DNA of 64,000 nucleotides from an uncultured Isosphaeraceae bacterium (GTDB taxonomy: Bacteria; Planctomycetota; Planctomycetia; Isosphaerales; Isosphaeraceae). Shown here one piece after another: positions 38,753 through 47,250 of the stretch (positions are counted from its first letter, which is position 1; each line of letters starts with the position of its first letter). A model generated the notes under the pieces. It made no database searches, had not been told where the DNA came from, and saw only the letters and a list, made by a program, of their open reading frames with translations. The stretch is taken from the NCBI GenBank assembly GCA_945957605.1, contig CAMFLR010000008.1:62001-126000 (forward strand). Direction: 5' to 3'. Both the position numbers and the translations under genes were made by a program.

Positions 38753-40702
38753 TCAGCCGAGCACGGGGTTGAGACCCATGTTCTTCCGCATTTCGGCGCG
38801 CTGCTTCTCGTAAACCATCAGCAGCTTGCGATCACGGAAGTGCTGCCGTTCCTTCTTTGCCTGGCCGGAGAGCATCAGCCGACGCATTGCGGTGCTGGTC
38901 AGCTCGCCTTTGCCCTTGTATCGCTTACGAATGCGGATCGCCGGTTTTTCGCCGTGGGCTTCGAGGATTTCATCTTCGAGCGAGACGAAAAACTCGCAGT
39001 GCCCCGGGTCGCCCTGGCGGGCGCATCGACCGGCAAGCTGGCGGTCAATTCGGCGTGATTCGTGCCGCTCGGTGCCAATCACATGGAGGCCGCCAAGATC
39101 GGCGACACCTGGCCCCAGCTTGATGTCGGTACCACGACCGGCCATATTCGTTGCGACCATCACTTTACGTGATTGGCCGGCATCCTTGACGATTTGGGCC
39201 TCGATCTCGTGATTCTTTGCGTTGAGAATCTGGTGCTCGATTCCCGCCTTCGTGAGCAGAGCACTCAGCTTTTCCGATTTTTCGATTGATCGGGTACCGA
39301 TGAGCACCGGCACATTTTTGTCGTGCCAGGAAACGATCTGATCCGCAATCGCCTGGAATTTCTCGTCTTCGGTCGAAAACACGCGGTCCGACACCCAGAC
39401 GCGACGACAAGGGCGGTTCGTGGGAACCTTGAACACGCCGACCTTGTAGATACGCCTCATCTCAGCCGCGTCGGTTGAGACCGTCCCGGTCATACCGCCG
39501 AGTTTTTTGTAGCGTTTGAAGAAGTCCTGAACCGTCACGCGAGCGGCGGTGATGGTTTCGAGCGTAACTTCAATTCGCTCTTTAGCTTGAATCGCCTGAT
39601 GCAAACCGTCCTGCCACTGGCGGCCGGGCATCATACGACCAGTGAACTCGTCGACGATCACGATCTCGCCGTTCACGACGACGTAATCACGGTCGCGAAT
39701 ATAGGCAATCTGGGCGCGCAGGGCGCGTTCGACGTACTCGTAAAGGCCGTCGACCGTCAGCATCGAGAATGCGGAATGACCAGCGACCGCTTGCACCTTG
39801 CGGCGTCCGGCGGCGTTCAGCTCGGCCTTGCGTTCGGCGGGATCGTACTTGAAATCCTTTGTGCGGACGAGAGTTGCGGCGAGCTGGTCGGCACCGTAGT
39901 AGGCGGCGGCTTCTTCCTGCGTCGGCTGGTTGTTGGCACCGATGATTAGCGGTGTACGGGCTTCGTCGATCAGGATGGAGTCGGCTTCGTCGATAATTGC
40001 GTAGTGATGCGTGCGCTGGACGGCCGATTGCCCTTCGTTGGTCATTCCTCGACCGAGGAATGCCTGCTCAAAGGTTTTGCGTTCGTTGTCGCCCATCTGC
40101 AAGCGTTTGAGTTCGTCGCGGAGGAAGTCGAAGCCGAATTCCTTGCTCGTGCCGTAAGTGATGTCGCAGGCGTAAGCTGCGCGACGGGCACCGTCGCTCA
40201 TGCCGGTTTCGATACAACCGACCGAGAGGCCGAGCAGTCCGTAAACCGGGCGCAGCGAATCGGCATCGCGCTTGGCGAGGTAGTCGTTGACGGTCACAAC
40301 GTGCACGCCCTTGCCTGGAAGCGCATTCAGAAACGCGGGCAAAGTGGCGACGAGGGTCTTTCCTTCGCCGGTTTCCATTTCGGCGACGCATCCGTTGTGA
40401 ATCGACGCTCCCCCGAAAATCTGCACGTCGTAGTGACGCTGCTTGATGGTTCGCTTCGCTGCCTCGCGAACGAGCGCAAATGCTTCGACCATCAGACTAT
40501 TGAGCGAATCGCCCTGACGCGCCTTCAGGCGAAGCTGGTGGCTGATTTCAGCCAGCTCGGCGTCGGTCTTCTTTTCGAATTCGGGTTCGAGTGCGTTGAC
40601 CTGCTTCGCGATCACGGCATAACGACCCAACCGACGCGAATGAGACGATCCCGCAACTCCCTTCACCTGATTCAACCAAATCGGGCCGAGATGGCTCGCC
40701 AT
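38753..40702 (-). CDS. Short SecA-like ATPase lacking the wing and most of the scaffold
   Basis: 649-aa SecA homologue, well short of a canonical SecA (about 830-1000). NBD1 is intact: MRLKAR-type N-terminus, ATP-binding METGEGKTLVATLP (about 109-122), YGTSKEFGFDFLRD, and the DEAD box IIDEADSILIDEARTPL (about 236-252). The preprotein-crosslinking region and NBD2 (VLIGTRSIEKSEKLS, NMAGRGTDIKLGPGVADLGG, GRCARQGDPG) are present. The protein stops about 25 residues into the long scaffold helix (KLLMVYEKQRAEMRKN), so the helical wing, rest of the scaffold and zinc tail are missing. It is likely a SecA2-type or specialised paralogue. Single gene, convergent with the CsrA pair. Confidence 0.92.
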   Translation of the reverse strand: MASHLGPIWLNQVKGVAGSSHSRRLGRYAVIAKQVNALEPEFEKKTDAELAEISHQLRLKARQGDSLNSLMVEAFALVREAAKRTIKQRHYDVQIFGGASIHNGCVAEMETGEGKTLVATLPAFLNALPGKGVHVVTVNDYLAKRDADSLRPVYGLLGLSVGCIETGMSDGARRAAYACDITYGTSKEFGFDFLRDELKRLQMGDNERKTFEQAFLGRGMTNEGQSAVQRTHHYAIIDEADSILIDEARTPLIIGANNQPTQEEAAAYYGADQLAATLVRTKDFKYDPAERKAELNAAGRRKVQAVAGHSAFSMLTVDGLYEYVERALRAQIAYIRDRDYVVVNGEIVIVDEFTGRMMPGRQWQDGLHQAIQAKERIEVTLETITAARVTVQDFFKRYKKLGGMTGTVSTDAAEMRRIYKVGVFKVPTNRPCRRVWVSDRVFSTEDEKFQAIADQIVSWHDKNVPVLIGTRSIEKSEKLSALLTKAGIEHQILNAKNHEIEAQIVKDAGQSRKVMVATNMAGRGTDIKLGPGVADLGGLHVIGTERHESRRIDRQLAGRCARQGDPGHCEFFVSLEDEILEAHGEKPAIRIRKRYKGKGELTSTAMRRLMLSGQAKKERQHFRDRKLLMVYEKQRAEMRKNMGLNPVLG

Positions 40703-42864: not shown

Positions 42865-43950
42865 TCAATATGAGTCAGCACTAATGACTTCGCCGCCGCC
42901 AATCGAACCGATCGCGGCCCAGGTTGGGGCGCTAACCGAGTTCTTGATGAAGCGGACCGAGCCATCGCACATCCCGACATTCACGCCGCCCGAGTGATTG
43001 CTCCGCGCCGCGATGTGTCCGCAGCTAAAGGCGGAATTCGCGCAATCGTATTGCATCGAGTTGGGAGTGATCGTGTGCGAGTAAAACGCCACCGGCGAAA
43101 GTGCCCGATAATATTCCTGGCCGCGATATTTCAGCCGTGTTGCACTCGTTGCGGCATTGTTGCAGCCAGGGAGATATGAAGACGTATTGTAGGCCGCGGC
43201 GCTCGGCGCGACGAACACGTTGAGATAGCTCAGTGCGGGAACTTCGGCCACGGTGTTGGCGACCGCGGTGGAACGCAGCGTTTCTGAGAAAAGCGAAGAG
43301 TTGCTGGTGCCATCGGTGATCGTGGCAATTGTTACCTTGCTGGTGACGGCCTGATAGTTCGGGTTCGGTGCGCCGTTGAGCGTTGCGGGAGCGGTCGCGT
43401 CGATCGTCACGTTGAATGCGCCGCGGAGCACGATATTGGATTCTTGCAGGAGCGCGGTGCTTCCCAGTTCAGCGCACGACGTGGCGCCGACCGATCCAAA
43501 GTAATTGTTGTAGCCGATGAATCCGCCCAGCTTACTGTTTGACGGGTCGGAAGGGCACACGAATGCCGAAACGATCTGGCTGCCCGAAGTGTAGTTTGGG
43601 CTGTTGGTCGTGTTGTTGAAAATGTCGTTGAGATTGAACTGGAAGTTGAACGTGCTGTAGGCGTTCGAACCCTCCATGAACGGCAGTACCTGCACGATCG
43701 GCGTGGCGCGGGGATATGCCGGCACGAGATAGAGCGGCGTTGGGCCATAACCCGGCGGGAACTGCGAATTGGTCGACTCGAAGTTCATCACGGCCAGGCC
43801 GAGCTGCTTCAAATTGTTCGTGCACTGCGAACGGCGAGCCGCTTCTCGTGCGGCCTGCACGGCGGGAAGCAGCAGGGCGATAAGCACTGCGATGATCGCG
43901 ATGACGACGAGCAATTCAATAAGCGTGAAGCCACGTTTGGCCTTCAGCAT
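42865..43950 (-). CDS. DUF1559 domain-containing protein with pilin-like leader
   Basis: 361-aa protein from ATG 43950. It has a type IV pilin-like leader, [20 protein letters not shown] (residues 6-25), with the Gly-Phe cleavage context, followed by [20 protein letters not shown]. The rest is the DUF1559 (SBP_bac_10) domain, ending with the family motif around [17 protein letters not shown] (H-x9-DG). Planctomycetes have dozens of these, thought to be assembled by a pilus-like or type II secretion system at the cell surface. It precedes a small lipoprotein gene by 27 nt, a recurrent pair. Confidence 0.95.
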
Positions 43951-44107
43951 GACGGAGCGTTCCTTCCCTAGACCGGAATTCGAGCTTTGAGCAAGTCGTT
44001 CCCGTCCGAGACAACCGAAGTCGTTATCTGGCGGGTTACACAAATGTCAGACAATAGCTTTTGGTTGATGAACCAACGCGTGAGCTTTTATGAAGATTCG
44101 TGGAAGC

Positions 44108-45115
44108 TTACTTGATTCCAAATTGAGAAATGATCGGACTATCGCCGGAAAGATCAAGATATTGGGGCGACTTAAGAGCCAGACCGCCCTCGCGCTTGGC
44201 CTGTTCGAGCAACCAATTCCACTTCCGTTCGTTGACGGCTTCGTCTATGGCAGAATCGTTGTTCAGCGGTGTCCATAGCACATACGTGCCATTGCCAAGT
44301 TGCACAAAAAGCAGCGACGGTTGGTCTGCGAGAATGCGAAGGGGGAGATACGGAGGTCGGGACTCACCATCGAACTCGGCCGATTTCCGTTTCAGGAAAC
44401 CCGCGATTTTGGCTCCGAGCGCAACGCGCGTTTGCGCAGTGACTTTTGGATCTTTGGGGTCACCTTTGGGTGGCGCCATGTCGCCTGGCCAGGTGATTCC
44501 GTCCTTCGGAGTCTCGTGTGGCGGCTGCGCCCTGATGTCGAGCAGCCATCCCGCCTTCTCGACGTCGATATCGTTTTCGGGAAGAACGACCGAATCCGCA
44601 TCGACAAAGTAAGAGCTATTTTCGATACGTATGCGTGCGACCGGTTCGCGATACTGAAGCGAGATTACAACTTTGTTGGGGTATGACTTGGTCGCGCGGA
44701 CCGCGCCTGAAATCCACGGCAGGCGCTTGAAGTCTTTAATCAGGTCGTCGAGATCGAGCTCGGCCATCGAAACTTTAGGGAGATGTCCGCCGCCCAAACG
44801 GGCTTCCTCGAGTAATCCAACCCTCCCCGATTTGATCCACTTTGGCGGCGCTGGGTCGATCTCGATGTCGCGAAATGCGAGCTTATAACTTTCTTGCCCG
44901 TGCAGCCACCCAATAACATAGCGGGAAACGTTCGAACCGCCGACTACCAGCAAGCCAAGCAACAGCGCGGCCCAGAGGCCAACGTTGCCAATCTTGGACA
45001 GGCGGAGCCGGCGTTCCCTCACCTGCGTTTCTCCCGTCCCTAGGGGTTGAGCGCCGAGAGGTTTCCCGCTTTCGGTCGGGCGTTTACCAGAGGTTGATTT
45101 GGAGGTTGAGTTCAT
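44108..45115 (-). CDS. ftsQ: FtsQ-like cell division protein
   Basis: 335-aa bitopic membrane protein. The start chosen is ATG 45115 (MNSTSKSTSGKRPTESG), within the 3' end of murB (32-nt overlap). A polar N-terminal tail of about 45 residues leads to one membrane segment (VGLWAALLLGLLVVGGSNV, about 44-62). Then a POTRA-like domain with FRDIEIDPAPPKWI, LIKDFKRLPWISGAVRATKS and YPNKVVISLQYREPVARI. The last three segments match FtsQ/DivIB's PW-x-x-x-A-x-V, YP-x-x-L-x-V and EREP patterns. It is last in a MurC-like/MurB/FtsQ unit, as in dcw clusters. FtsQ connects early and late division proteins in most bacteria. Confidence 0.82.
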   Translation of the reverse strand: MNSTSKSTSGKRPTESGKPLGAQPLGTGETQVRERRLRLSKIGNVGLWAALLLGLLVVGGSNVSRYVIGWLHGQESYKLAFRDIEIDPAPPKWIKSGRVGLLEEARLGGGHLPKVSMAELDLDDLIKDFKRLPWISGAVRATKSYPNKVVISLQYREPVARIRIENSSYFVDADSVVLPENDIDVEKAGWLLDIRAQPPHETPKDGITWPGDMAPPKGDPKDPKVTAQTRVALGAKIAGFLKRKSAEFDGESRPPYLPLRILADQPSLLFVQLGNGTYVLWTPLNNDSAIDEAVNERKWNWLLEQAKREGGLALKSPQYLDLSGDSPIISQFGIK

Positions 45116-45965
45116 AACCCGACTGCGCTGCAACCTTCGACCGAATTTGTTCGATCAGGGCGAGCACATCGGCCGACTTCGCGCCGCTCTGGGCGACGAT
45201 GAAGTTGGCGTGACGGTCGGAAACTTCCGCACCGCCGACTCGCAACCCCTTCAATCCTGCCTGCTCAATCAAGGCACCCGCCGAGATCTCAGGCGTCGGA
45301 TTCTTGAAAATACAGCCCGACGATTGGTGACCGTACGGCTGGTTTTCCTTCTTGATGATCCAGATACGTCGCATCCGGCGTACCACCGACTCAGGATCTT
45401 CCGGCTCGAGCTCGAATTCCGCCGAGAGAATCACCGGCTCGTCGAGGTCGGACGAACGATACCCAAACGCGATCTCGTCGCGCTCGCGTACCTGGATCTT
45501 ACCAGCGCTGTCCAGCACCGTCGCGCGAACGACGAAATTGCCGATCGCCCCTTGCCGTCCACCCGAGTTCCCGCGCAGCGATCCACCGACAGTTCCTGGA
45601 ATGCCGGTCAGAACTTCGAGACCAGCGAGACCGGCTCGCGCCGTCTGGGAGATCAAGGCCGTAAGTGGAACGGCCGCACCGGCTTCGACGTGCGTCCCTT
45701 CGATCTTCACGTCGGCGAAGAGCGGGCTTTCGAGCTGAATGACCAGCCCGGGAAAACCTTCGTCGCGGACGAGGATGTTGGACCCGCCGCTCAGAATTCG
45801 TGTGGGAACCCCCTGCTCGCGTGCCCGGTTCAGGAGGCCAACGAGCTCTTCCACGGTTCCAGGCCGGGCGAAAAACGCTGCCGGCCCGCCGAGGCGAAAC
45901 CAGGTCAGCGGAGCCAGCGGCTCATCGGCCTTGACGATCGCGCGGAAGTCGTCGAATGAATGCAT
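45084..45965 (-). CDS. murB: UDP-N-acetylenolpyruvoylglucosamine reductase
   Basis: 293-aa FAD-dependent reductase that completes UDP-MurNAc synthesis in the cytoplasm, type II in length. Motifs: TWFRLGGPAAFFARPGTVEEL (FAD/substrate), LSGGSNILVRDEGFPGLVI, GIPGTVGGSLRGNSGG (pyrophosphate loop), GHQSSGCIFKNP with the catalytic Ser, and HANFIVAQSGAKSADV. A Glu near the C-terminus (YELNLQINLW) fits the second catalytic residue. It overlaps the upstream MurC-like gene by 44 nt and the downstream ftsQ by 32 nt, so the three are co-expressed. Presence of MurB supports peptidoglycan synthesis. Confidence 0.95.
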   Translation of the reverse strand: MHSFDDFRAIVKADEPLAPLTWFRLGGPAAFFARPGTVEELVGLLNRAREQGVPTRILSGGSNILVRDEGFPGLVIQLESPLFADVKIEGTHVEAGAAVPLTALISQTARAGLAGLEVLTGIPGTVGGSLRGNSGGRQGAIGNFVVRATVLDSAGKIQVRERDEIAFGYRSSDLDEPVILSAEFELEPEDPESVVRRMRRIWIIKKENQPYGHQSSGCIFKNPTPEISAGALIEQAGLKGLRVGGAEVSDRHANFIVAQSGAKSADVLALIEQIRSKVAAQSGYELNLQINLW

Positions 45966-47250
45966 CGGCTATCGTTCCCACTTCGCCGGCCCCAAGCGTC
46001 AGCAAGACGTCGCCGGGTTCTAGATGCTTGTCCAGGTCAGAAATGGCTTCGTCGAGACTCTCGACACGACGGGAGGTGACCCCTGCACCCTCTAGCATAC
46101 CCGCCCATTCGCCGGAGTCGACGCCTGCTTCTACAAGAAGAATACGATCTGCTGCGCGAAGTTCAGCAACTGTCGCACAACAAGGCGGTCCCTCGGGGGC
46201 GAAAACCGTCCAGAGCCGGCGCCTACCATACAGATTTCGGGCCAGAGCCAGGGTTTCCGCCACGTCCGACGCCGCCACTGCATCGTCGTCACATAGCGTA
46301 ACACCTCGATAGCTTCCGCGTGACTCAAAAGCGCGAGAAATGCCCGCAAAGTCTTCCAACGCTTGTTTAATCGCCCGCGTCGGCACCTCAATTCGCTTAC
46401 AAACCGCGACCGTCGCCAGCGCACTGAGCACGCTCGACCGTCCGGGAACTTGCAATCGAATCTCCGCCGCGAACTGGCCGTGATGGAAGGCCCTGAAGCG
46501 GAACCGCCCGCGCTCTTCACGGAGGTCGGTCCCCCACCAATCGCTTCCCGGCTCGAGCGACAGAGTATCGACCTGCGCATTCTCTGCAAGCGAGGCTTCG
46601 CTCATGAGCGCCGGATTCGCCAAGACGAGCGAGCCATTGCGGCTGACTCGTTCCGCAAGTTGAACCAGCACTGTACGTTCGGCCGGATCGATCTGGGCGA
46701 CGTCAAGCATCACCGCAATCGAGGGCCCCGGCTCGCCAAGCAATTCTGGCGTGAGTGCTTGTGTGATATCGATAACAGTCTGGGCGCCACGTCCGGCTCG
46801 GGCGGGTCCGCCGAGCTGACGCGAATTTCCTCTCAGAAGCACGCTGGGGTCGAAACCGGCCTGGGCGAGTGTCCAGCCGATCATCGCCGCGGTCGTTCGC
46901 CCCTGTCTTTGCCCGGCGACGGCAATCCCCTGCTTTCGTCCCAAAAGTTGGCGAACGACGGCGGGATAGGATGCCTGGGCGATTCCATCGCGTGCTGCGA
47001 CGAGTCGATCGGAGTGTTCGCGGGAGACATCGGGCGAATAGACGAGCCATCGCGCCGTATGTGGAAGTGAGACAGGGTGATGCGCTGAATCGACCCGGGC
47101 TGAGCCGATGGTCTGGGAGACCTCGTAGCCTTCGTCGGCGAGCCAGCGTGCCAGGCCTGCCATCGCGTCGTCGCGACCGCCCACCAGATGTGCCTGGATC
47201 GGCTTCGAGTGTGCAAGGTCAGGTTGGGTTTGTGTTTCCGACCGATCCAT
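45922..47250 (-). CDS. MurC-like protein, probably catalytically inactive
   Basis: 442-aa homologue of UDP-N-acetylmuramate-L-alanine ligase from ATG 47250. The fold is MurC's: a Rossmann start with AMAGLARWLADEGYEVSQ, a central domain, and an end with GDVLLTLGAGEVGTIADAF. The catalytic motifs have changed. The P-loop (GTHGKTTT in MurC) reads GQRQGRTT (113-120), losing the lysine. EADESD is DITQAL (161-166), NIEADHMD is LDVAQID (182-188), DDYGHHPTE is DDDAVAASD (321-329), and the QPHRYSRT-type motif is APEGPPCCA (351-359). All three domains are affected, so loss of ligase activity is likely while the reading frame stays intact. It precedes murB with a 44-nt overlap. Confidence 0.85.
   Translation of the reverse strand: MDRSETQTQPDLAHSKPIQAHLVGGRDDAMAGLARWLADEGYEVSQTIGSARVDSAHHPVSLPHTARWLVYSPDVSREHSDRLVAARDGIAQASYPAVVRQLLGRKQGIAVAGQRQGRTTAAMIGWTLAQAGFDPSVLLRGNSRQLGGPARAGRGAQTVIDITQALTPELLGEPGPSIAVMLDVAQIDPAERTVLVQLAERVSRNGSLVLANPALMSEASLAENAQVDTLSLEPGSDWWGTDLREERGRFRFRAFHHGQFAAEIRLQVPGRSSVLSALATVAVCKRIEVPTRAIKQALEDFAGISRAFESRGSYRGVTLCDDDAVAASDVAETLALARNLYGRRRLWTVFAPEGPPCCATVAELRAADRILLVEAGVDSGEWAGMLEGAGVTSRRVESLDEAISDLDKHLEPGDVLLTLGAGEVGTIADAFIRRLPRDRQGR

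Follow-up and report, generated by a model that had tools for sequence, protein, structure and literature searches.

An uncultured Isosphaeraceae bacterium (GCA_945957605.1) carries, overlapping its murB, a full-length homologue of the Mur ligase MurC that has lost the P-loop lysine and most of its catalytic residues and that evolves under purifying selection. We refer to this gene as psi-murC. Read from its sequence, the product is probably a MurC-derived pseudoenzyme, and we lean towards a role as a non-catalytic partner of a retained MurB/FtsQ module. Since a catalytic residue is missing from the neighbouring MurB as well and the peptidoglycan pathway around it went largely undetected, the analysis as a whole suggests that old wall enzymes have been kept for another job. 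The window, i.e. the whole stretch of DNA analysed, comprises 64,000 nucleotides of contig CAMFLR010000008.1; its features are listed in Table 1, together with a MurE homologue read at other loci.

Table 1. Positions of the features in the window (MurE: locus coordinates) and the basis on which each was assigned
Feature	Position	Strand	Basis
psi-murC, full-length disarmed MurC homologue, 442 aa	45922..47250	-	ORF, profile, PDB search, AlphaFold2 model, motif alignment
Former P-loop GQRQGRTT (residues 113-120), canonical GTHGKTTT	46891..46914	-	alignment; R115 invariant in 11/11 psi-MurCs
DITQAL (residues 161-166), canonical EADE(S/Y)	46753..46770	-	alignment; first Glu kept in 8/11
DDDAVAASD (residues 321-329), canonical DDYxHHPTx	46264..46290	-	alignment
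Overlap of psi-murC stop and murB start, 44 nt	45922..45965	-	locus comparison
murB with its FAD-binding motifs; Gln289 (NLQINLW) at the catalytic Glu position	45084..45965	-	profile, alignment, 55-genome reading
MurB codon 289, Q vs E in all 8 PBP-bearing relatives (E. coli Glu325 equivalent)	45099..45101	-	alignment
ftsQ homologue: membrane anchor, POTRA, FtsQ-type fold	44108..45133	-	Foldseek 8hhf_Q, E 2.8e-9
Short SecA, 649 aa, no SecA_SW wing domain	38753..40702	-	domain reading, locus comparison
Degraded MurE homologue	L146:11332-12840, also L101; MurE loci L086-L102	-	motif reading

Gene and predicted fold

The gene lies on the minus strand, with its ATG at 47250 and its stop codon at 45922-45924, and all 442 codons stay open. 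A preliminary description of this DNA, which gave no strand, had claimed an intact frame and homology to MurC, and both claims hold. Against the TIGR01082 equivalog profile psi-MurC scored 120.3 bits, below the curated cut-off of 335.1 bits, and its orthologue from Singulisphaera acidiphila scored 217.7 bits; PF01225 was uninformative for so divergent a protein. A sequence search of the PDB returned MurC 9ir5 with an E-value of 6.6e-24 over residues 14-432. An AlphaFold2 model (pLDDT 79.7, pTM 0.79) was compared to resolved structures by Foldseek, where the 22 best matches consisted of 21 MurC structures and one Mpl. In structural alignment the best match, Haemophilus influenzae MurC 1p3d, covered 410 residues with a Z-score of 38.6 and an rmsd of 2.9. 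According to these comparisons the three-domain MurC-type Mur ligase fold is predicted to be complete.

Lost, kept and new residues

For motif comparison psi-MurC was aligned with nine canonical planctomycete MurCs, and 11 members of the psi-MurC family were read. Each motif that had been described as lost was verified as such. In the window copy K117 is replaced by G, E161 by D, E164 by Q, N276 by S, R307 by A, H325 by V and H353 by E, and both the DH of (E)ADHxD and a C-terminal R are deleted, such that only D321-D322 are retained of the set involved in catalysis and in binding of ATP and Mg (EADE Glu, xDHxD, Asn, Arg and DDYxHH). Most losses are common to all 11 members rather than private to this copy. 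T114, H115 and K117 from the P-loop, N276, R307 from the hinge, H325 from the HH motif and C-terminal H353, all invariant in the nine canonical MurCs, are absent from every psi-MurC, and the xDHxD pair is missing from all or nearly all of them. The exception is E161, Asp in the window copy and Glu in 8 of the 11. The alignment revealed no complete alternative set of catalytic motifs elsewhere in the protein.

Structural glycines are kept, and nearly all members have D321-D322. Most also have H21, G24 and G29 of the N-domain (of which G29 is missing from the window copy) and GAG at 420-422. In addition, the family has acquired specific residues that are invariant among the 11, i.e. R115 in the former P-loop, Q145-L146, R311, T426 and D429. 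These kept and new residues are what the main functional rival of the partner role builds on, namely that psi-MurC is a ligand sensor or regulator whose old clefts bind some nucleotide, such as a UDP-sugar, R115 standing in for the P-loop His. The invariant residues, R115 and R311 among them, could then form a new ligand site and not a protein interface. In this reading psi-MurC would report envelope precursor supply, for instance to MurB or to WecA-like transferases, of which the genome encodes two. At the UDP site, however, G27 and GSD 46-48 are missing or variable in several psi-MurCs including the window copy, and we regard ligand sensing as unlikely.

Selection and conservation

Comparison of four pairs of relatives gave dN/dS values of 0.18, 0.21, 0.28 and 0.29 (p 7.9e-20 to 5.1e-38), rough figures since pairs are few and several have dS > 1. 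The proposal that psi-murC is retained by selection is hereby supported, and the neutral evolution expected of a pseudogene was not seen. In each of three regions taken alone, N-terminal, middle and C-terminal, pN was lower than pS (p <= 2.4e-4). The single pair of canonical MurCs that was measured had a dN/dS of 0.066, lower than any of the psi-murC values, which counts against the partner role. Compared pair by pair, dN is about 2-8 times that of the neighbouring MurB for psi-MurC and about 3-4 times for canonical MurC, from which, roughly, psi-MurC does not seem to evolve out of proportion to MurB.

Conservation is redistributed along the protein. Formerly catalytic blocks are less conserved in psi-MurC than in canonical MurC (101-120: 0.37 vs 0.53; 161-180: 0.30 vs 0.49), whereas other blocks are more conserved (241-260: 0.71 vs 0.26; 301-320: 0.82 vs 0.33; 401-420: 0.75 vs 0.35); since the canonical set spans several families and is deeper, the contrast between blocks is the informative part. 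Pairwise identity among psi-MurCs reaches 0.64-0.82 in blocks 241-280, 301-320 and 401-440. As a sequence pattern this is what would characterize a retooled protein, not a decaying one.

The main null is a passive, slowly eroding relic, in which a non-functional psi-murC is kept open mainly by the murB start inside its 3' end and by the translation that drives murB, and is lost lineage by lineage. The ancestral 41-44-nt overlap with murB, at least two losses that fit the MurB tree and the dN/dS above that of the canonical pair are all in line with it. The overlap accounts for the last ~14 codons only, however, whereas the constraint covers the whole protein: the N-terminal and middle regions, remote from the overlap, are constrained (p 5e-5 to 1e-17), and blocks 241-320 rank among the most conserved. 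A relic leaves this remote constraint unexplained and we consider it quite improbable.

An altered ligase that is still catalytic, using another substrate and a chemistry without P-loop, would fit the strong conservation of the new residues, the full three-domain fold, the Glu that 8 of the 11 retain at 161 and the nearly universal D321-D322. It would have to manage with the P-loop Lys, the xDHxD pair, the Asn, the hinge Arg and both His gone from all or nearly all members, and no alternative nucleotide motif is visible in psi-MurC, which makes such an enzyme very unlikely.

Distribution and origin

psi-MurC was found in 11 of the 37 Isosphaeraceae genomes searched and every copy is disarmed. 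Carriers include Singulisphaera acidiphila DSM 18658 (NC_019892, complete chromosome) and MAGs labelled Isosphaeraceae. The genome studied here is an assembly of 33 contigs, 95% complete and 3.5% contaminated, but an artefact of assembly, frameshift or contamination can be dismissed, as ten other, independent genomes, the complete S. acidiphila chromosome among them, carry this gene with these losses in open frames without internal stops. The disarmed copies form one clade with a support of 100/100. Mapped on the MurB tree, presence of psi-MurC requires three changes, as for one origin followed by two losses. The other 26 Isosphaeraceae lack psi-MurC; in those read, murB and ftsQ are still present and adjacent, with a different gene upstream where the stretch was readable.

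The peptidoglycan pathway

According to the preliminary description, a catalytic murC should be encoded at another site. This was not borne out: profile searches identified none, either here or in 36 other Isosphaeraceae. In this genome no protein matched TIGR01082 above cut-off, and the PF08245 matches are FolC and the MurE homologue only. All 37 Isosphaeraceae lack a MurC above cut-off, whereas one is present in eight genomes from other families of the class.

Profile searches of this genome also failed to detect MurA, MraY, MurD, MurF, MurG, SEDS polymerases and PBP transpeptidases, the absence of MurD and MurF being judged from PF08245 and from cross-matching by the MurE and MurC profiles; control genomes did give matches. 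Candidates were scrutinized and rejected. The sole PF00275 protein is AroA (446 bits vs 70 for murA), both PF00953 proteins match WecA best (mraY scores of 46 and 52 bits against 192), and a protein with a 52-bit match to MurG has diglucosyl diacylglycerol synthase as its best match. SEDS polymerases (PF01098) were found in none of the 37 Isosphaeraceae genomes, and PBP transpeptidases (PF00905) in none of 36, the exception being one fragmented MAG (G004; contigs C163, C423 and C498). This MAG, with 5% contamination, also shows a strong MurE match (455 bits) and no MurB match, and represents either contamination or a real exception.

According to a survey from 2025, murB is conserved across the whole PVC superphylum, and Isosphaerales, Gemmatales and Pirellulales have lost murA, C, D, F, G, J and ftsW (PMC12283558). 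An earlier genome comparison reported several, not all, peptidoglycan genes in Isosphaeraceae, including murB, murE and mraY (PMC5352709). The absences found here agree with the losses of the former and with the partial gene set of the latter, except that the mraY candidates of this genome look WecA-like. Judged by gene content, Isosphaeraceae would make no peptidoglycan.

MurB and MurE

Loss of catalytic residues extends to the neighbouring MurB and to the MurE homologue of this genome, which the preliminary description had missed. The window MurB scores 191 bits against TIGR00179 (cut-off 144.5) and has the PF01565 FAD-binding domain. The catalytic positions of MurB are Arg159, Ser229 and Glu325 in the E. 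coli enzyme. Ser229 acts in proton transfer (PMC9952037). The window MurB retains the Arg and a Cys at the Ser position. Gln289 sits at the position of the Glu in the C-terminal LELExxxW motif, where it aligns to the E of two solved MurBs, so that the full Arg, Ser (or Cys) and Glu set is not present.

These positions were read in 55 genomes of the class (loci L115-L144 and L155-L181), in which genomes of one family are not independent as counts of loss. All eight PBP-bearing genomes have the full set of Arg, Cys or Ser, and Glu. The Glu is lost in all 33 readable Isosphaeraceae (28 Q, 3 R, 1 A, 1 N). The six genomes of family f3 keep the Glu, but carry Arg at the Cys position and His at the Arg position; the four of family f5 have Y, I or W for Cys and Q, G or S for Glu; family f4 has Y and Q; and a genome of family f7 has Arg for Cys. 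That different residues were lost in different families points to more than one loss.

Among the PBP-less genomes read, an intact MurB occurs only once, as a second copy in a genome of family f4 (G039), which also has a canonical murC. There, at G039:C1:6282439-6295590, the canonical murC, murE, a second protein of the EPSP synthase family (MurA-like) and the intact second murB are clustered; the genome has a broken murB elsewhere and gave no PBP or SEDS match. Perhaps this cluster was acquired for another product.

The MurE homologue has, in the Isosphaeraceae read, lost the HDHLDYH and DYAHTPD motifs and kept the DNPR motif in most. Its P-loop is variable, the Lys being lost in many Isosphaeraceae including this genome.

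Gene neighbourhood

The order psi-murC, murB, ftsQ and secA is conserved among related loci. The overlap of psi-murC with murB measures 41 or 44 nt in the other psi-murC loci and 14-44 nt between murC and murB of peptidoglycan-making relatives. We rejected it as evidence of a new link, since it predates loss of the pathway and thus, by itself, signals none.

The model of the window FtsQ has a pLDDT of only 69; Foldseek also matched it to other FtsQ structures, and Pfam POTRA_1 was below cut-off in this protein and above it in the FtsQ of S. acidiphila. The short SecA keeps its Walker A motif and is ~80% identical between genera. In most Isosphaeraceae loci read (L035, L038-L041 and L149) it is encoded directly downstream of ftsQ, and in the window inserted genes part the two. 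Between them lie a DUF1559 pilin-like gene with an N-methylation motif (42865-44043, minus strand) and small neighbours.

Discussion

We propose that Isosphaeraceae lost peptidoglycan synthesis and that the ancestral MurC would have lost ATP binding and catalysis, its fold being retained for a continuing task at the protein level. This task would most likely be that of a structural partner of MurB, which is encoded by the overlapping gene and itself lacks one catalytic residue, and through MurB psi-MurC may be linked to the membrane-anchored FtsQ homologue. Such a module might work in the envelope or in division without peptidoglycan. The idea of a partner of MurB or the divisome, raised in the preliminary description, is compatible with the conserved gene order. 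Contact between psi-MurC and MurB is suggested by their shared disarmament, by the kept overlap, ancestral and weak as an argument alone, and by two precedents. Against the partner role is that 26 of 37 Isosphaeraceae have no psi-MurC, with murB and ftsQ kept in those read, which means that MurB and FtsQ do not need it.

The first precedent is the MurCB fusion of Verrucomicrobium spinosum, which is functional and essential (PMC12283558). In this PVC bacterium MurC and MurB form a single protein, whereas the psi-murC carriers have two overlapping genes. The second is plant MurE/PAP11, a peripheral component of the plastid RNA polymerase whose function in angiosperms is apart from peptidoglycan synthesis (PMC12681378). 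As proposed for psi-MurC, this homologue of a Mur ligase serves outside peptidoglycan synthesis as one of the proteins of a different complex, and the psi-MurC model matches the plastid RNA polymerase chain 8r6s_Q at rank 50 with a Z-score of 22.6. PAP11 is however a MurE from a plant organelle, with a known partner complex, whereas that of psi-MurC is our inference. With canonical MurC (PDB 1p3d) psi-MurC shares full-length homology, the three-domain fold, gene order and the murB overlap; it differs by its lost P-loop Lys, DH pair, Asn, Arg and His, by scoring 120 bits where the cut-off is 335, and by a setting in which no peptidoglycan pathway was detected.

Both the loss of the pathway in Isosphaerales (PMC12283558, 2025) and Mur ligases with other jobs were known already. 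That survey covers the same lineages and absent functions and counts murC among the losses; we find that some Isosphaeraceae keep a disarmed murC, along with a MurB without its full catalytic residues. In the open-licence papers searched we found no report of the retention of disarmed MurB, MurC and MurE, none of MurB catalytic loss wherever PBPs are absent, and nothing relevant on a MurC pseudoenzyme.

More tentatively, and with a good deal of doubt, PBP-less planctomycetes may possess a dedicated module of non-catalytic former wall enzymes that serves as a scaffold in the envelope or in division, with a disarmed MurB in every PBP-less family examined and in part of the Isosphaeraceae also a disarmed MurC, next to FtsQ and the short SecA ATPase. 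A murB or murE found in a planctomycete should not be taken as evidence of peptidoglycan synthesis. For the question of how bacteria divide when FtsZ and the common wall machinery are missing, what seemed leftover wall genes become a few candidates for non-catalytic proteins, open to study in the culturable Singulisphaera acidiphila.
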